This document shows positions 42,466-51,500 of a DNA stretch of 64,000 bases, piece by piece. Origin of the DNA: Candidatus Zixiibacteriota bacterium (lineage in GTDB: Bacteria > Zixibacteria > MSB-5A5 > GN15 > FEB-12). The notes under the pieces were generated by a model. That model saw only the letters and a list, made by a program, of their open reading frames with translations, had not been told where the DNA came from and did no database searches. The stretch covers positions 1 through 64,000 of the forward strand of contig JAGNLV010000003.1 in NCBI GenBank assembly GCA_017999435.1, written 5' to 3'. The position numbers were made by a program, and so were the translations under genes. Every line of letters begins with the position of its first letter. The first letter of the stretch is position 1.

Positions 42466-42490
42466 AGGGTGTAGCTGGGTGTATGCGTCC

Positions 42491-45136
42491 ATGAAAGTAC
42501 TCGTCGTTGCGGCAGCCGTCATAGCGAGCCTCGCGGGCCGGGCGCTCGCCGATATAGCGATGCGGATCGAGCGGTCGGAGTTGGCGCGCCCGGGCGACCG
42601 GGTGACGCTGACCCTGGCGGCCGTCGACAGCACGGGGGCTTTTCAGATGGGCGGATTCGAGATGACGGTCCGCTACGACACCACGCTCACGCTGATCGCG
42701 GTCAACCGGGGGCAGATGCTTAATCTCTGCGGGTGGGAGTATTTCACCTCCAACCTGATCGGCGTCAACAATATCCACATCACCGCGATCGCCGACATAT
42801 CCAACGGCGCCCACCACCCCTCGTGCTTCGGGATGCCAACCGCGGATCTGGTGGACATCACTTTCGACATCCCCTGGGATTACAGCCTCTACGGCCGGTT
42901 CCTGCCCGTGAAATACATCTGGTACGACTGCGGCGACAACGCCGTGTCCTCGCGCTGGGGGGATACGCTCTACATGTCGGACGATGTCTACGGTTTCGAT
43001 GGGATCTCGGAGTGGGAGATCACGCGGGATACGGCCTTTCCCACCCCGTACGGTGCGCCCAGCTGGTGCAGCTCGGTGGCGGGCGGGCGGATTCTGGATT
43101 TCTACAGCGGCGGGGTCAGTCTCATTCAGCAGGATTTTCAGCCGCCGGTGGCGCACTGCCCGAATGATACGACGGTGGCGGCCGGGCCGAGCGAGTGCGC
43201 CGCAGTGGTGGAGTTCACCGCCACCGTCACCGACAACCGCCCGGGAGCGACCATCTCGTGCACCCCTCCCTCCGGCACGTATTTTTACCGGGGCGCCAAC
43301 TACGTGCAGTGCATTGCCGTCGACGCCTGGGGGAACCGGGACACCTGCGGGTTCACGGTTACGGTGACCGACACCTCCGCGCCGATCCTGGCTGCCCTGC
43401 GCGATACGGTCATCGGCAATGCCCCGAACGAGTGCGGCACGGTGTGGACCTACAGCGCCGCGACGTACGATAACTGCCCGGGCGTGACCTGGTCCGGGTC
43501 GCCTCCCCCCGGTTCGTACTTCTCCGTCGGGGCCACCGACGTGATCGTCACCGCCGTCGACTACTCCGGCAACCGGAAAGTCGACACATTCTGGGTGACG
43601 GTGGAGGACCGGCAATGGCCGGTGGCCCATCACCCCGACTCGGTCATGGTCGCCGCCGCACCCGGCCAATGCAGCGCCCCGGCGACGTTTTCGGTAACGG
43701 CAACCGACAACTGCCCGCTCGCCACGGCGGTCGCCTACCCCCCATCGGGATCGGTCTTCCCGGTGGGGACAACGATGGTGCAGGTGATCGCCACCGACCT
43801 CCTGAATAACTGCGATACGACCTGGTTTCCGGTCACCGTTCGCGATACCGAGCCGCCGCAGTTGATCTACCCGGAGAGCCTGGTGGTCGGCGTCGACAGC
43901 GGCCAGTGCGCCGCGGCCGTCACTTACACCCTGTCGGCAGTGGACAACTGCGGCACGCCGGCGGTGACGGTGTCGCTGCCGCCCGGCTCGCTCTTCCCGC
44001 TGGGCACGACGGCGGTGACGGCGGCGGCGGCGGACCTCTCCGGCAACGTCGACTCCGCAGCCTTTTACATCACGGTCGTGGACGACGAGCCTCCGCGCCT
44101 CACGGCGCCCCATGACCTGATGGTGCCCGCCGAACCGGGAGTGTGCAGCGCGATGGTCGCGTACGCGGTGACGGCGGCCGACAACTGCGGGAGCGCCGCG
44201 CTGTCGGTCAACCCGCCCTCGGGATCGTACTTTCCGGTCGGAGTCTCCACGGTCGAGGCGGTGGCGGTCGATGCCGCCGGCAACGTCGACACCGCGCGGT
44301 TCACGGTGACGGTGCGGGATGAAGAGCCGCCCGCGGTGACGGCGCCCGCCGATCTGGATCTGCCGAACGACTCCGGAGCCTGCGGGGCCGCGGCCGCCTA
44401 CGAGGCCGCGGCGTCGGACAACTGCGGCCTTCCCGCGGTGACGCTCCAGCCGTCCGCGGGTTCGTTCTTTCCCGTCGGGGCGACCGCGGTCCGGGCGGTG
44501 GCGGTCGATGCCGCCGGCAATGCCGATACCGCCTTTTTCACAGTGACCGTGCACGACACCGAACCGCCGACCGTCCAGTGTCCCGAGGCCGTCGAGGTGA
44601 CGAGCGATTCGGGGTTGTATGGAGCGGTTGTCCATTTCGCGATCGCCGCGCTCGACAACTGCGCCGGGGCTCTGGCTGCGGCCGAGCCGCCCTCCGGATC
44701 GCTGTTCCCGCTTGGGAGCACCGTGGTGACGGTCGCCGCGCAGGACGCCGCGGGCAATGCCGATACCGCGCAGTTCACCGTGACCGTGGTGCTCGATGAT
44801 CCGGATGCCGACGGGCTGCCCTCGTGGGCGGACAACTGCGCCGAGGACCACAACCCCGATCAGACGGACACGGACGGCGACGGCGTGGGCGACGCCTGCT
44901 GCTGCGCGGTGCGGGGAGACGTCAACGACAGCGGGTTGCCGGGCGCGCAGGTCAATGTGAGCGATCTGACGGCCCTCATTGCCTACCTGCTGCAGGGCGG
45001 AGCCACGCCCCCGTGCCCGGAGCAAGCCAACGCCAACGGCAGCACGGAGAGCGGCGGGCGAATCACCGTATCGGACCTGACGTTCCTGATCTCCTACCTG
45101 TTCCGCGGCGGTCCGGCGCCGTCCCCCTGTCCCTGA
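42491..45136 (+). CDS. secreted multi-domain protein: cohesin-like, seven HYR repeats, type-3 repeat, dockerin-like
   Basis: An 881-residue exported protein. A signal peptide (KVLVVAAAVIASLAGRALA) is followed by a cohesin-like domain at about 21-205 (RIERSELARPGDRVTLTLAA, then MGGFEMTVRYDTTLTL). Seven HYR repeats of about 80 residues follow (roughly 210-780), each ending in a VTV-[RTV]D-[DET]-xPP junction and containing TDNC and PVGxT elements. Next come a thrombospondin type-3-like Ca2+ repeat (DPDADGLPSWADNC with NPDQTDTDGDGVGDAC) and a dockerin-like pair of Ca2+ loops (RGDVNDSGLPG...VSDLTALIAYLLQGG, then a second VSDLTFLISYLFRGG). It is likely a cell-surface or extracellular adhesion/scaffold protein. 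The ATG 42491 gives a classical signal peptide; a GTG at 42479 adds four residues. No enzyme domain is present. Confidence 0.85.
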   Translation: MKVLVVAAAVIASLAGRALADIAMRIERSELARPGDRVTLTLAAVDSTGAFQMGGFEMTVRYDTTLTLIAVNRGQMLNLCGWEYFTSNLIGVNNIHITAIADISNGAHHPSCFGMPTADLVDITFDIPWDYSLYGRFLPVKYIWYDCGDNAVSSRWGDTLYMSDDVYGFDGISEWEITRDTAFPTPYGAPSWCSSVAGGRILDFYSGGVSLIQQDFQPPVAHCPNDTTVAAGPSECAAVVEFTATVTDNRPGATISCTPPSGTYFYRGANYVQCIAVDAWGNRDTCGFTVTVTDTSAPILAALRDTVIGNAPNECGTVWTYSAATYDNCPGVTWSGSPPPGSYFSVGATDVIVTAVDYSGNRKVDTFWVTVEDRQWPVAHHPDSVMVAAAPGQCSAPATFSVTATDNCPLATAVAYPPSGSVFPVGTTMVQVIATDLLNNCDTTWFPVTVRDTEPPQLIYPESLVVGVDSGQCAAAVTYTLSAVDNCGTPAVTVSLPPGSLFPLGTTAVTAAAADLSGNVDSAAFYITVVDDEPPRLTAPHDLMVPAEPGVCSAMVAYAVTAADNCGSAALSVNPPSGSYFPVGVSTVEAVAVDAAGNVDTARFTVTVRDEEPPAVTAPADLDLPNDSGACGAAAAYEAAASDNCGLPAVTLQPSAGSFFPVGATAVRAVAVDAAGNADTAFFTVTVHDTEPPTVQCPEAVEVTSDSGLYGAVVHFAIAALDNCAGALAAAEPPSGSLFPLGSTVVTVAAQDAAGNADTAQFTVTVVLDDPDADGLPSWADNCAEDHNPDQTDTDGDGVGDACCCAVRGDVNDSGLPGAQVNVSDLTALIAYLLQGGATPPCPEQANANGSTESGGRITVSDLTFLISYLFRGGPAPSPCP

Positions 45137-45668: not shown

Positions 45669-48551
45669 ATGAGTCGGGTGCTCGCAGCGGCATTCTGTAT
45701 CTGCCTGGCGGCCTCGGCCGCGGCGGAAGATCTCCTCGAAGTAACAATCGGCAGCCATCGTGACGCCCGGGCGCTGCGCGAATCTGCGCTGACCCCGGTG
45801 GCGCTGACGGGCAACGTGTACCTCGCGCTGGGGGAGCGCGCGGAGTGGAAGAAGCTGGTCGAGGCGGGGGTGCGGATCGAACCGGTCGCCTTTGATGTGG
45901 CGCGGCCTCTGCTGGCGTTCGACCGCCGTCCGCCGGGAGATGCCCGGCCCGGCTACCCGGCCGTGTATGACCGCCACGGCTTTCGCCTCGTCGCTCTGCC
46001 GAACCGCTCGGCCCTCGCGGGCCCGCACGCCGCCGACCTGGCGCCGCTCGTCCGGGGCCCGGTTGCGGTCCGCTACGTCCCTCCGCGCCCGGCGCCGCAG
46101 CCGGCCGCCGGCGCCATGGGCACCATCGACAGCCTGGTCGCGCTGATCAGCGAAGATTCGCTTCGGTCGTACACCGAGCGCCTGCAGGCCTTTCACCGCC
46201 GCCTCACCGGCACCGATTCCTCCGCCGCGGCGCGCGACTGGATTGCCGCCCGGTTCCTGGCCTTCGGCTACGACTCGGTGGCGATCGATCCCTTTGTCGG
46301 CGAGCAGCTCTGGGACCGGGTCCCGGTGCCGAGCTACAACGTCGTGGCGTGCAAAGTCGGGGCGCTCTACCCGGAGCAGGAGATCATCATCGGCGGCCAT
46401 TTCGACGCGGTGCCGGATTGTCCCGGCGCCGACGACAACGCCACCGGAACGGCGGGCACGATGGAGATCGCGCGCGTGCTCGCCGCCGGGGACTTCCCCA
46501 TGACCCTCAAATTCATCGCGTTCGACTCGGAAGAGTCCTGGATGTGGGGATCGTACCACTACGCCGATTCGGTGGCGGCCGAGGGGGCGGAAATCGTCCT
46601 CATGATCAACCTCGACATGATCGCGCATGAATCCAACACCGCCGGAGCGAACCTCTACTGGGGAGCCGACCAGTCCTACGCGGCGCTCTGGGCGGATTTG
46701 GCGCCGACCTACGGCGGAATTGCCGCGAGCCTGATGGGGGGCACGGCCTCCGACCACCTGCCGTTCGCGGAGAACGGCTACGACGTGATTTTCGTCCAGG
46801 AGCGCAACTTCTCGACCCACTACCACGAGCCCAGCGACAGCACCACCCACCTCAATTTCGAATACATGACGCGCATGGTGAAAGTGAGCCTGGCGACCGC
46901 GGCGACAGTCTGGACGCTGCCTCCGCCGGTGCGCATCACGGCCATCCGGGAGCCGGGCGACGGCCAGTCGCAACTGGTCCAGTGGCGCGCGATTCACAGC
47001 GCCAACATCGACCACTACCGGGTGTACTGGTACCCGGACGGTTCTCCGGGAAACGCGCACAACCTCACCCTCCCCGCCGGCGACAGCAGCGCGCTGGTGA
47101 CCGGGCTCACCGAAGGAGTCACGTATGTCTTCGGCGTGCGGGCGTACGACGTGCAGGGGCGGACGGCGCTGGCGGTGGAGGAGGTGCTCGGACGGCCCGA
47201 TTCGCGGCCGGCCGCGCCGCCCGGACTGGCGGCGCTCCCGATCTCTCACGGGGTCCGGGTCTGGTGGCGCCACACCGATCACGAACTCGATTTCGAGCAC
47301 TACGCCGTCTACCGCGACGGCACGCTTGCAGGCACGACCGCCGACAGCGTGTACGAGGACCGCGACCCCGCGCTGGGAACCGAGCTGCACCGCTACCTGG
47401 TCGCGGCGGTCGACTTCGACGGCAACCTGTCGGACACCGCGGCGGCTGTCGAGGCCCGGGCGGCGACCTTGACGCCGGGGCGGATACTGGCGATCAACCG
47501 CGACAATGTCGCGGTTCCCGGAGCCGAGGTCGCGCTCACCGGGGAGTTCCTCCGCGCCGCCCTGGCCGGCGCCGCCTGCGACTACCGCTCCGATTCCGCC
47601 TACGCCGACGCCTCCTCCCGCACCCGGCTCTACGACCTCGTCAGCTACGAACTGGTGGTGGTGGCCGGAGAGACGTTCTACGACAATGTCGCTTTCAGCC
47701 CGGCGGGGGGCGGACTGCTCGACACCCTGGCCTACTACCTCGCGATCGGCGGGAAGCTGCTCGTCTTCGGCCGGTTCGGTCCGAGTTCGGGCAACACGGT
47801 GGTGACCATCCCCTACGCGGCCACCGCGGCCGCCTGGGACGACGCCTACAGCACCGTGTTCCACCTCGCCGAGCGGTCGGTGCTGCCCCTGGTGGCGGGA
47901 GGCCAGGTCTCCGGGGATCTGGTCGGGGCCCATCCCCAGCAGGCGGGCTGGCCGGCGCTGCCGTGGGATTCGCTGCGGACGGCGCAGCAGGAGCCCTCGA
48001 TCCAGACGCCTTTCGGCATCTGCGCGGGGTCGTTTGTGACGCTGAACTCTTCCCTGCCCGATGTCCTCTACACCTACGATTCGGGCACGGATGACACGCT
48101 GACGGAGGGGAAAGCGGTGGCCTGGCGGTACCTGGGGGCGGACTACCGCTACATCTGGTTTGACCTGCCCTTGTCGTTCTTCGACGAGGCGGCGGCGATC
48201 GCGGCGGTGCACCGGGCGGTCAATGACCTGACCGGCACGGCGACTGCTCTGCCGCCGGAGGAGACGCTGCCGGACGGATTCGCCCTGACGCCCAATTACC
48301 CCAATCCGTTCAATCCGCGCACGACCATCGGGTACACGCTTCCCCGGACGGTGCGGGTGAAGCTGACGGTGTACAATCTGCTCGGGCAGCAGGTGCGGGT
48401 GCTGGTGGATGGGGAGCAGGCGGGGGGACGGCATGAGGCGGTCTGGGACGGGACAACCGGGAAGGGGCGGCCGGCGGCCAGCGGCGTCTACCTCTACCGC
48501 CTGGAGACCCCCTCCCGCTGCGCTGCCAGGAAAATGCTCCTCCTCAAGTAG
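45669..48551 (+). CDS. secreted M28-family zinc metallopeptidase with C-terminal sorting domain, copy 1
   Basis: A 960-residue exported protein. A signal peptide (MSRVLAAAFCICLAASAAAE) is followed by a propeptide-like region to about 135 and an M28 aminopeptidase domain at roughly 145-420. All five metal and catalytic positions are visible: His244 (GGHFDAVPD), Asp255 (GADDNATG), Glu288/289 (DSEES), Asp316 (NLDMI) and His386 (HYHEPSD). Two fibronectin-III-like modules come next (about 425-600), then a 290-residue region shared with copy 2, and a YPNPFNPRTTIGYTLP... C-terminal domain (last 95 residues) of the FlgD-like/type-A sorting kind found in secreted proteins of FCB phyla. The last 1.1 kb is nearly identical to copy 2. 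Start ATG 45669, AGGGA upstream. It probably trims peptides outside the cell. Confidence 0.9.
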   Translation: MSRVLAAAFCICLAASAAAEDLLEVTIGSHRDARALRESALTPVALTGNVYLALGERAEWKKLVEAGVRIEPVAFDVARPLLAFDRRPPGDARPGYPAVYDRHGFRLVALPNRSALAGPHAADLAPLVRGPVAVRYVPPRPAPQPAAGAMGTIDSLVALISEDSLRSYTERLQAFHRRLTGTDSSAAARDWIAARFLAFGYDSVAIDPFVGEQLWDRVPVPSYNVVACKVGALYPEQEIIIGGHFDAVPDCPGADDNATGTAGTMEIARVLAAGDFPMTLKFIAFDSEESWMWGSYHYADSVAAEGAEIVLMINLDMIAHESNTAGANLYWGADQSYAALWADLAPTYGGIAASLMGGTASDHLPFAENGYDVIFVQERNFSTHYHEPSDSTTHLNFEYMTRMVKVSLATAATVWTLPPPVRITAIREPGDGQSQLVQWRAIHSANIDHYRVYWYPDGSPGNAHNLTLPAGDSSALVTGLTEGVTYVFGVRAYDVQGRTALAVEEVLGRPDSRPAAPPGLAALPISHGVRVWWRHTDHELDFEHYAVYRDGTLAGTTADSVYEDRDPALGTELHRYLVAAVDFDGNLSDTAAAVEARAATLTPGRILAINRDNVAVPGAEVALTGEFLRAALAGAACDYRSDSAYADASSRTRLYDLVSYELVVVAGETFYDNVAFSPAGGGLLDTLAYYLAIGGKLLVFGRFGPSSGNTVVTIPYAATAAAWDDAYSTVFHLAERSVLPLVAGGQVSGDLVGAHPQQAGWPALPWDSLRTAQQEPSIQTPFGICAGSFVTLNSSLPDVLYTYDSGTDDTLTEGKAVAWRYLGADYRYIWFDLPLSFFDEAAAIAAVHRAVNDLTGTATALPPEETLPDGFALTPNYPNPFNPRTTIGYTLPRTVRVKLTVYNLLGQQVRVLVDGEQAGGRHEAVWDGTTGKGRPAASGVYLYRLETPSRCAARKMLLLK

Positions 48552-48569
48552 CCCGCCGGCGGGCGGTGG
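47449..48569 (+). repeat. 1,121-bp direct repeat, copy 1 (3' end of peptidase gene 1)
   Basis: Matches 50380-51500 at a constant offset of 2,931 bases. I count four differences (at 47487, 48440, 48462 and 48524), three silent and one Lys/Glu change. It includes the stop codon and 18 bases beyond. Upstream of 47449 similarity drops sharply. Confidence 0.95.
48551..48564. other. GCCCGCC/GGCGGGC palindrome after peptidase gene 1
   Basis: A 14-base perfect palindrome just past the stop codon, repeated at 51482-51495. It has no T run, so it is not a standard intrinsic terminator, but might slow or stabilise transcript ends. Confidence 0.45.
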
Positions 48570-48587
48570 CGTTGGAGGAAAGTGGAT

Positions 48588-51482
48588 ATGACGTTCCGCA
48601 TGGGATTCCTGACGCTAGCGGCGGTGATGCTCGGCGCCGCCCCGGTAGTCGCCGACAAATTGGTGGAAGTGACGCTTCGGGATTTTGCCGAGGCCCAGCA
48701 GCTCGAGGCCGCCGGCGCGACGGCGGTGGCGGCGGCGGGGAACTTGTACCTGGCGGTGATCTCCGACTCGGGCCTGGCCCGCCTGACCGCGGCCGGCGTG
48801 GAGGCCGCTGTCGTAGCCCAGGGCGTCGCAGCCGACCGTCTGGCGATCGACCGCAGCGCCCCCGGCGCGTACCGGGGACCGCACGCGGTGGTGTTTGCGC
48901 GCGATCGACTCCGGCTGGTGCAGGTTGATTCTCGCGCCGCCGCCGAGAAGGACCCCGAGCTGGTTCCGATCACCGACTTCCCCGTGCCGATCCGCTACTC
49001 CCCCGCGCGCCCGGCGCCGCAGCCGGCCGCCGGCGCCATGGATACAATCGACAGCCTGGTCGCCCTGGTGAGCGAGGACTCGCTGCGCAGTTACACCGAG
49101 CGGCTGCAGGCATTCTACCGCCGCGTGTCCGACACCGACTCGAGCCGGGCGGCGCGGGACTGGCTGGCGGCTAAGTTTGCCGCGTTCGGCTACGATTCGG
49201 TGGTGCTCGACTATTTCGATCCCTACCCCTCATCGAGCACGCCCCCCGGCGAGTGCTGCAACGTGGTGGCCTGCCGGCCGGGCGCGGCATATCCCGAACA
49301 GCAGATCGTGATCGGCGCGCACTACGACGCGGTGGCAAGCAGCCCCGGCGCCGACGACAACGCCTCGGGGACGGCGGCGGTGCTCGAACTCGCCCGCGTT
49401 CTCGCCGGGTGCGCGGCGCCCGTGACTCTGACGTATATCCCGTTCGACGCCGAGGAGAGCGGCCTGCTGGGCTCGCGCCACTACGCCGATTCGATGGCGG
49501 CGCTCAACCGCGAGATCGTCCTCATGGTTAATTTCGACATGATCGGGCACGAGACGAACGATTCGGTCGCGCGCGTGTATTTCAACCACGATTCGGTCTA
49601 CGCCGATCTGTGGGTGCTCCTCGCCCCGACTACCGGACCGCTCGTCGGGGATATCGCCGGGTACGGCGGGAGATCGGACCACGTGCCGTTCGGGAGCAAC
49701 GGCTACGACTTCCTCAGTCTGACCGAGGACGACTTCTCCACCCACTACCACTCGCCGAGCGATTCGACGACCTATCTCAATTTCGATTACGTGGAGCGGA
49801 TCGTGCGCGTGTCGCTGGCCGCCGTGTATGCGGCGGCGACGCTGCCGCCGCCGGTGCCGATAGCCGCGATCCGGCAGCCGGGCGACGGCCGGTCGCTCCT
49901 CGTGGAGTGGCGCCCCCTCCGCCGGACCGCGCTCGATCACTACCGCCTCTGCTGGTACCGCCAGGGAAGCCCCGCGACCCTCCAGTGTCTCGACCTCCCT
50001 CCTTCCGACAGCATACACACCGTGGAGGGGCTGACCGAAGGGGCCGCGTACATCTTCTACGTGCAGGCGTTCGATTCCGCGGGACAGACCTCGCTGACGT
50101 GGCCCGACGGGATCGGCATCCCGCAGTCGCGGCCGGCGCCGCCGGAGGGGCTGACAGGACTGCCGATTCATCAGGGCGTGGCGCTGCAGTGGGGTCGGAA
50201 CAACCAGGAACTGGATTTGAGCCACTACGCGATCTACCGCGACGGCGCGCTTGCGGGCACAACTTCCGACACGGTTTTTCAGGACCAGGATCCGGGGCTG
50301 GGGGAGGAGTTCCATGAGTACCTTGTCGCGGCCGTGGATGACGACGGCATTGTCTCCGACACGATCGGCCGGACGCCGTTCGAGGCCCGGGCGGCGACCT
50401 TGACGCCGGGGCGGATATTGGCGATCAACCGCGACAATGTCGCGGTTCCCGGAGCCGAGGTCGCGCTCACCGGGGAGTTCCTCCGCGCCGCCCTGGCCGG
50501 CGCCGCCTGCGACTACCGCTCCGATTCCGCCTACGCCGACGCCTCCTCCCGCACCCGGCTCTACGACCTCGTCAGCTACGAACTGGTGGTGGTGGCCGGA
50601 GAGACGTTCTACGACAATGTCGCTTTCAGCCCGGCGGGGGGCGGACTGCTCGACACCCTGGCCTACTACCTCGCGATCGGCGGGAAGCTGCTCGTCTTCG
50701 GCCGGTTCGGTCCGAGTTCGGGCAACACGGTGGTGACCATCCCCTACGCGGCCACCGCGGCCGCCTGGGACGACGCCTACAGCACCGTGTTCCACCTCGC
50801 CGAGCGGTCGGTGCTGCCCCTGGTGGCGGGAGGCCAGGTCTCCGGGGATCTGGTCGGGGCCCATCCCCAGCAGGCGGGCTGGCCGGCGCTGCCGTGGGAT
50901 TCGCTGCGGACGGCGCAGCAGGAGCCCTCGATCCAGACGCCTTTCGGCATCTGCGCGGGGTCGTTTGTGACGCTGAACTCTTCCCTGCCCGATGTCCTCT
51001 ACACCTACGATTCGGGCACGGATGACACGCTGACGGAGGGGAAAGCGGTGGCCTGGCGGTACCTGGGGGCGGACTACCGCTACATCTGGTTTGACCTGCC
51101 CTTGTCGTTCTTCGACGAGGCGGCGGCGATCGCGGCGGTGCACCGGGCGGTCAATGACCTGACCGGCACGGCGACTGCTCTGCCGCCGGAGGAGACGCTG
51201 CCGGACGGATTCGCCCTGACGCCCAATTACCCCAATCCGTTCAATCCGCGCACGACCATCGGGTACACGCTTCCCCGGACGGTGCGGGTGAAGCTGACGG
51301 TGTACAATCTGCTCGGGCAGCAGGTGCGGGTGCTGGTGGATGGGGAGCAGGCGGGGGGACGGCATGAGGCCGTCTGGGACGGGACAACCGGGGAGGGGCG
51401 GCCGGCGGCCAGCGGCGTCTACCTCTACCGCCTGGAGACCCCCTCCCGCTGCGCCGCCAGGAAAATGCTCCTCCTCAAGTAG
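48588..51482 (+). CDS. secreted M28-family zinc metallopeptidase with C-terminal sorting domain, copy 2
   Basis: A 964-residue paralogue of the upstream gene with the same domain order: signal peptide (TFRMGFLTLAAVMLGAAPVVA), propeptide-like region, M28 domain with His245 (GAHYDAVAS), the ADDNASG Asp, the Glu pair in DAEESGLLGS, NFDMIGH and HYHSPSD, fibronectin-like modules, the shared C-terminal region and YPNPFNP domain. The first 600 residues are clearly diverged from copy 1 (for example CNVVACRPGAAYPEQQIVIG against NVVACKVGALYPEQEIIIG), while the last 360 differ by one residue. Start ATG 48588 has GGAGG nine bases upstream; it is only 36 bases after copy 1, so the two are likely co-transcribed. 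The stop codon overlaps the convergent EamA gene by eight bases. Confidence 0.9.
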   Translation: MTFRMGFLTLAAVMLGAAPVVADKLVEVTLRDFAEAQQLEAAGATAVAAAGNLYLAVISDSGLARLTAAGVEAAVVAQGVAADRLAIDRSAPGAYRGPHAVVFARDRLRLVQVDSRAAAEKDPELVPITDFPVPIRYSPARPAPQPAAGAMDTIDSLVALVSEDSLRSYTERLQAFYRRVSDTDSSRAARDWLAAKFAAFGYDSVVLDYFDPYPSSSTPPGECCNVVACRPGAAYPEQQIVIGAHYDAVASSPGADDNASGTAAVLELARVLAGCAAPVTLTYIPFDAEESGLLGSRHYADSMAALNREIVLMVNFDMIGHETNDSVARVYFNHDSVYADLWVLLAPTTGPLVGDIAGYGGRSDHVPFGSNGYDFLSLTEDDFSTHYHSPSDSTTYLNFDYVERIVRVSLAAVYAAATLPPPVPIAAIRQPGDGRSLLVEWRPLRRTALDHYRLCWYRQGSPATLQCLDLPPSDSIHTVEGLTEGAAYIFYVQAFDSAGQTSLTWPDGIGIPQSRPAPPEGLTGLPIHQGVALQWGRNNQELDLSHYAIYRDGALAGTTSDTVFQDQDPGLGEEFHEYLVAAVDDDGIVSDTIGRTPFEARAATLTPGRILAINRDNVAVPGAEVALTGEFLRAALAGAACDYRSDSAYADASSRTRLYDLVSYELVVVAGETFYDNVAFSPAGGGLLDTLAYYLAIGGKLLVFGRFGPSSGNTVVTIPYAATAAAWDDAYSTVFHLAERSVLPLVAGGQVSGDLVGAHPQQAGWPALPWDSLRTAQQEPSIQTPFGICAGSFVTLNSSLPDVLYTYDSGTDDTLTEGKAVAWRYLGADYRYIWFDLPLSFFDEAAAIAAVHRAVNDLTGTATALPPEETLPDGFALTPNYPNPFNPRTTIGYTLPRTVRVKLTVYNLLGQQVRVLVDGEQAGGRHEAVWDGTTGEGRPAASGVYLYRLETPSRCAARKMLLLK

Positions 51483-51500
51483 CCCGCCGGCGGGCGGTGG
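50380..51500 (+). repeat. 1,121-bp direct repeat, copy 2 (3' end of peptidase gene 2)
   Basis: See copy 1 at 47449-48569. This copy also contains the last 26 bases of the convergent EamA gene (51475-51500). Confidence 0.95.

Follow-up and report, generated by a model that had tools for sequence, protein, structure and literature searches.

Partial homogenisation of paralogous genes has been described in Helicobacter pylori, where segment 1 of homA and homB groups by gene and segment 3 groups by strain, a pattern explained by gene conversion (PMC2795765). The babA and babB genes are cited in the same account as a further case of segment 3 concerted evolution (PMC2795765, citing Pride & Blaser 2002), and tail homogenisation is, as these two gene pairs are presented there, an already known process. 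A second described arrangement is that of the P. gingivalis gingipains, in which near-identical C-terminal adhesin modules follow different protease domains (PMC5266723).

The locus examined here lies in a window of 64,000 nucleotides, the whole stretch of DNA that was analysed (Candidatus Zixiibacteriota bacterium, assembly GCA_017999435.1, contig JAGNLV010000003.1, positions 1 to 64,000, forward strand). Two M28 peptidase genes, designated A and B, are arranged head to tail in it and comprise the following features.

45669-48551, + strand: gene A, secreted M28 peptidase, 960 aa (ORF; Pfam M28 E 1e-34, fn3, FlgD_ig; TIGR04183 29.2 bits)
48588-51482, + strand: gene B, tandem paralogue, secreted M28 peptidase, 964 aa, architecture as gene A (ORF; Pfam M28 E 9e-39; TIGR04183 28.6 bits)
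45669-47448, + strand: diverged 5' half of gene A, with signal peptide, M28 catalytic domain and FN3 (62% nt and 53% aa identity to gene B, dS 0.94)
48588-50379, + strand: diverged 5' half of gene B (same values against gene A)
47449-48569, + strand: homogenised tract, gene A copy, covering the spacer and sorting domains, the stop codon and a further 18 bases downstream (4/1121 mismatches to the gene B copy, dS 0.010)
50380-51500, + strand: homogenised tract, gene B copy (4/1121 mismatches to the gene A copy)
48299-48551, + strand: YPNPFNP / FlgD-like sorting domain inside the tract, gene A copy (TIGR04183 stretch 877-955 and FlgD_ig 885-946 of gene A)
about 51230-51482, + strand: YPNPFNP / FlgD-like sorting domain, gene B copy (same domain as in gene A)

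The gene pair and its homogenised tract

Both genes encode a signal peptide, an M28 domain, an FN3 domain, a spacer and a C-terminal sorting domain of the type IX secretion system (T9SS) type. The start ATG of gene A was picked by eye, guided by the signal peptide; the ATG of gene B at 48588 is preceded by a GGAGG ribosome-binding site at 48574-48578. M28 Pfam scores were 120 and 134 bits for the two genes (cut-off 21.3), and the HxD, GADDN, EES, NxDM and HYH motifs were found in both translations by inspection. Export of A and B by the T9SS is likely, because their tails pass the TIGR04183 cut-off (23 bits) and genes for SprA (588 bits in frame, cut-off 200) and the PorU sortase (638 bits, cut-off 420) are present in the genome. 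The spacer had no Pfam match in the gene A copy and none that was consistent among 31 members, its best hit in a profile search against the PDB had an E of only 0.58, and an AlphaFold2 model from the single sequence was useless (pLDDT 36). The gene upstream of the pair (42479-45136, + strand) contains a 237-nt direct repeat in three copies (61-100% identity), with repeated HYR-like domains and a dockerin-like end.

The initial annotation had placed a 3' tract with four mismatches and one amino-acid change on the two genes, and these coordinates and counts proved exact: the mismatches fall at tract offsets 38, 991, 1013 and 1075 (0-based), one of them exchanging Lys and Glu. Codon alignment of the tract (366 codons) gave 99.6% nucleotide and 99.7% amino-acid identity with three synonymous and one non-synonymous differences, and that of the upstream part (592 codons) gave 62.0% and 53.0%, in keeping with the moderate similarity originally noted, with pS 0.53 and dN 0.43; synonymous divergence along the pair thus drops from a dS of 0.94 upstream to 0.010 in the tract. 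Its boundary, described from the outset as sharp, is so at both ends, with identity at background directly outside: 10 or fewer matches per 20-base block just upstream, and 4-8 per 20 in the first blocks downstream. In gene A the tract opens with codon 594, directly behind the FN3 domain, and it ends 18 bases past the stop, 5 bases short of the GGAGG of gene B. No third copy was found elsewhere in the 3.5-Mb genome.

Strong constraint on the encoded protein does not account for this uniformity. Three differences at 297 synonymous sites cannot be conservation, because the tract protein (with its spacer) is only 34-46% identical to that of 30 relatives. A whole-gene duplication of recent date, with the catalytic half then diversifying rapidly under selection, would account for the high ratio of dN to dS in the fronts (0.43/0.94) and for the long branch of gene B, but the synonymous sites of the fronts are near saturation (the pS given above) against the very low dS of the tail, protein-level selection cannot lift dS about 90-fold, and the step occurs at one base. 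Moreover, the fronts of A and B (54% identical) are as diverged as genes of other genera (A against G029, G066 and G033, 47-48%). Judged from the aligned codons, this scenario is already refuted by dS unless the mutation rate differs about 90-fold between the halves, and it was given practically no credence.

A 5' patch of similarity (46005-46137 and 48933-49059) was considered as an older conversion tract and rejected, being not above chance (permutation p = 0.67). On the question of which gene was the donor, codon usage differed by 1.9 standard errors, against the usage of gene A; neither this difference nor GC3 singled out one of the two, and the tree carried no polarity.

Other tail-bearing genes of the same genome

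The initial annotation had described a C-terminal module kept uniform, and new secreted enzymes made around a fixed export tag. Uniformity was borne out inside the tandem group and did not extend across the genome, where some 50 further tail domains match that of gene B at no more than 41-58% identity; for this reason the tail is not one fixed export tag. A single tag throughout the genome was rejected on the same identities, on the lack of another DNA copy and on the scarcity of long repeats around tail genes: a k-mer survey of about 0.6 Mb around these genes returned only two repeats longer than 1 kb at 99% identity or more, and a contig scan with the tail as query returned mostly matches to the sorting domain alone. 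No recent tract was seen in other adjacent tail-bearing pairs of the genome beyond the cases that follow.

Two adjacent genes at G000:C1:1004654-1009887 share a 3' module of 1345 bp that is 100% identical (L161 4154-5498 and 8043-9387). The module runs to 24 bases beyond the stop and comprises the tail together with a BACON-like domain and a dockerin-like stretch. In front of it the genes are non-homologous, one encoding a beta-propeller protein (1267 aa) and the other a beta-helix/PKD protein (1376 aa). Site-specific recombination at a palindrome after the stop (CCCGCCGGCGGG in the window, GCGCCGGCGC in the 1345-bp case) was considered and rejected, since the palindromes are absent from other tail genes and such stems arise by chance.

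In a tandem FG-GAP pair (L159 1301-4440, G000:C4), identity is 98% for the 27 aligned codons at the start, reaches 93-96% in stretches of the C-terminal end and drops to 44-66% in the middle; the pair is homogenised only at the signal-peptide and C-terminal ends, with a diverged middle. An M4 protease gene and the M28 gene just downstream of it have related C-terminal halves (C-halves) at 56-74% nucleotide identity per window. These two genes stand in a row of secreted proteases (M4, M28 and an apparent M6) at G000:C2:638441-646498, in which the C-half is shared by the M4 and M28 members. Elsewhere on that contig, a tail-bearing gene region (L190 9425-11076) contains internal repeats that are 92-97% identical in 279-bp steps. 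The genome (G000), rated 98% complete, gave no match to 16S rRNA.

Tandem arrays in related genomes

Arrays of 2-4 tandem M28 genes are common across the order. In G012, which belongs to another genus of the family, a tandem pair with fronts of 50% amino-acid identity shares an 863-bp tract at 99.4%, beginning just after an FN3-like region, a place comparable to that in the window pair; the G012 pair ends in a dockerin and not in a YPNPFNP tail. Among the tandem M28 pairs examined, seven recent tracts were found in otherwise diverged pairs, all seven in the last 40% of the gene and with midpoints beyond 80%. The two exceptions to this location (L062 and L150) arose by recent duplication, over much of the gene or all of it; as whole-gene duplicates they were left out of the tail-tract count. 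Other pairs (G045) showed no excess similarity in the C-half. The tandem fronts of a second M28 subfamily group as sisters, which leaves the excess similarity of the C-half as the sole support for conversion there, with no tree conflict. About 102 bp are identical at L146 13096-13197, L147 1055-1157 and L149 9692-9794, near M28 arrays of two genomes of genus g30.

Concerted evolution was tested in the M28 arrays of four g30 genomes (G029, G064, G065 and G066), three of which are single contigs. Fronts of one paralogue type clustered together whatever their genome (G065_10492 and G066_10035, for example, at 100/100), and C-halves grouped by genome with 97-100 bootstrap. Approximately unbiased (AU) tests rejected genome groups on the front data (p 9e-7, 0.013, 2.9e-4 and 3e-8, the rejection being moderate for the G064 genome clade at 0.013) and paralogue groups on the C-half data (p 1e-54, 4e-44 and 3e-4), all of these p-values being optimistic because the tested groups were named after the trees had been seen. 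On these trees and tests, the segments of the g30 arrays conflict, fronts following orthology and C-halves following genome. With the window pair left out, the excess of C-half over N-terminal identity was 9 points higher within arrays than between arrays (permutation p 5e-5). The recent gene conversion or domain replacement first proposed for the window fits this conflict, with its AU rejections in both directions, and the 3'-end tracts of the other tandem M28 pairs likewise back conversion.

Between genomes, the divergence of the C-half roughly equals that of the front; homogeneity of the tails inside a genome thus goes without conservation from one genome to the next. For gene A against its relatives the identities were about 38-48% for the front and about 34-46% for the C-half; a uniform tail is therefore not simple purifying selection on an export tag, the tail being no better conserved between genomes than the catalytic half.

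These related arrays also bear on whether the shared tail could be an artefact of assembly or polishing, a collapsed or duplicated tail placed on both genes. The genome is probably a MAG (7 contigs), recent copies could be affected by either process, and in one case from the same genome the two copies match at every one of 1345 bp. Assemblers, however, merge only sequences already sharing long words, turning at most about 98-99% identity into 100%, so an assembler cannot make the pattern from tails that are 62% identical. The window copies also retain their four differences and are bordered by distinct sequence at either end, the pattern is repeated in the independently assembled G012, and older, partly diverged homogenisation is found in single-contig genomes. 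An artefact was accordingly judged very improbable.

The arrays likewise make unequal exchange between copies plausible. The second gene could have gained its tail by unequal crossing-over, triplication and loss of a third copy, and the tandem same-strand layout and the 2-4 copies in relatives make such exchange likely to occur; but two events are required, including a precise deletion, and a remnant of a third gene is absent after 51500. The route was considered improbable, and would in any case still be intragenomic recombination between tandem copies with the same outcome.

Exchange was also found across catalytic families. Three papain-like (C1) genes from two genomes of a sister family have fronts that are 48-54% identical to one another. 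Each of their C-halves nevertheless falls with M28 genes from the genome it belongs to: two cluster with neighbours in the array, the third with a gene located on a different contig. A clade uniting the C1 genes on C-half data was rejected (p 4e-5). The modular construction of enzymes in the initial annotation gains support from unrelated fronts on one tail module (propeller with beta-helix/PKD, papain C1 with M28, and M4 with M28), and fails in its assumption of a single tag genome-wide. Read as tail copying between neighbours, the pattern recurs in the same genome, in G012, in the g30 arrays and in the C1 genes.

Proposed mechanism and comparison with described systems

The shared half of A and B was very probably made by recent partial gene conversion, that is, intragenomic recombination between old tandem paralogues. 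Under this explanation both genes would be old copies with an M28 front, FN3, spacer and T9SS-type sorting tail, and a recent non-reciprocal recombination would have overwritten the spacer-plus-tail half of one gene with that of the other, with four substitutions since. The left end of the tract lies just after FN3, where similarity between A and B was already low, and the right end most likely corresponds to the end of the duplicated unit. Homologous recombination of the RecA type is the presumed agent, its non-reciprocal action between tandem copies being the most economical reading. The diverged fronts may escape since divergence blocks pairing, since selection keeps different specificities, or both; blocked pairing in the fronts would keep the step sharp and let the tails go on exchanging, and selection for matching tails may add to the contrast. 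In the 1345-bp case the tail would first have been joined to the second gene by non-homologous fusion or duplication, a step needed because the fronts are unrelated; either this joining was itself recent, or later conversion made the copies identical.

Selection for a uniform, genome-specific export or anchoring tail, co-adapted with the T9SS or, for dockerin-ended tails, with a cohesin partner, could fix such conversions. SprA and PorU are encoded, tails are uniform within arrays and change fast between genomes, tracts end at a sorting or dockerin end, and the FG-GAP pair is homogenised at signal-peptide and tail ends alike. The some 50 other tails of the genome are nevertheless not homogenised, from which it follows that one export machinery tolerates very different tails, and neutral conversion driven by remaining homology explains the data equally well. 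Such selection is possible but was rather doubted; it addresses why tails are homogenised, not how, and is compatible with gene conversion.

A broader proposal is offered tentatively, as one that may well not hold: that secreted multidomain proteins of this bacterial family carry their tail modules as exchangeable cassettes, with recurrent intragenomic recombination keeping a genome-specific tail on neighbours whatever their front (M28, papain C1, M4, propeller or beta-helix), and that this, favoured by selection, lets new catalytic fronts be tried on a working export tail.

On the observations made here, C-terminal modules for export or anchoring and catalytic fronts evolve on different schedules, the tails being homogenised inside a genome and changing quickly between genomes, and the fronts retaining old identities. 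Tail homogenisation explains how one tail sits on unrelated fronts, and it carries the warning that whole-protein trees of secreted proteins mix two histories. The natural tail swaps also provide a tractable set with which to test what parts of a T9SS substrate can be exchanged. A literature search with partial coverage found nothing on such tail exchange in tandem M28 arrays or across catalytic families, and exchange between unrelated catalytic types appears to be undescribed in the literature so covered.

Non-reciprocal homogenisation of part of a paralogue is a known process that would apply here as well; the present case differs in its strong 3'-end bias, domain-like left boundary, array-wide extent and recurrence over a bacterial family. 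The likeness is close to H. pylori homA/homB and babA/babB, which, in the account cited, are surface-protein paralogues with 5' parts grouping by gene and 3' parts by strain through intragenomic gene conversion. Those comparisons were made between close strains of a single species, at loci encoding one family of outer-membrane proteins, whereas the present ones span genera and involve secreted peptidases in tandem arrays along with other multidomain proteins. Here, too, the part in common terminates in a tail of the T9SS type or a dockerin, and it also occurs on genes whose fronts are unrelated. P. gingivalis rgpA/kgp and hagA resemble the present genes in joining different proteases to shared, near-identical C-terminal modules and a T9SS sorting domain, a combinatorial modularity involving recombination (PMC5266723); their shared modules are adhesin repeats, whereas those described here consist of a spacer without a Pfam match plus the tail, on tandem neighbours.
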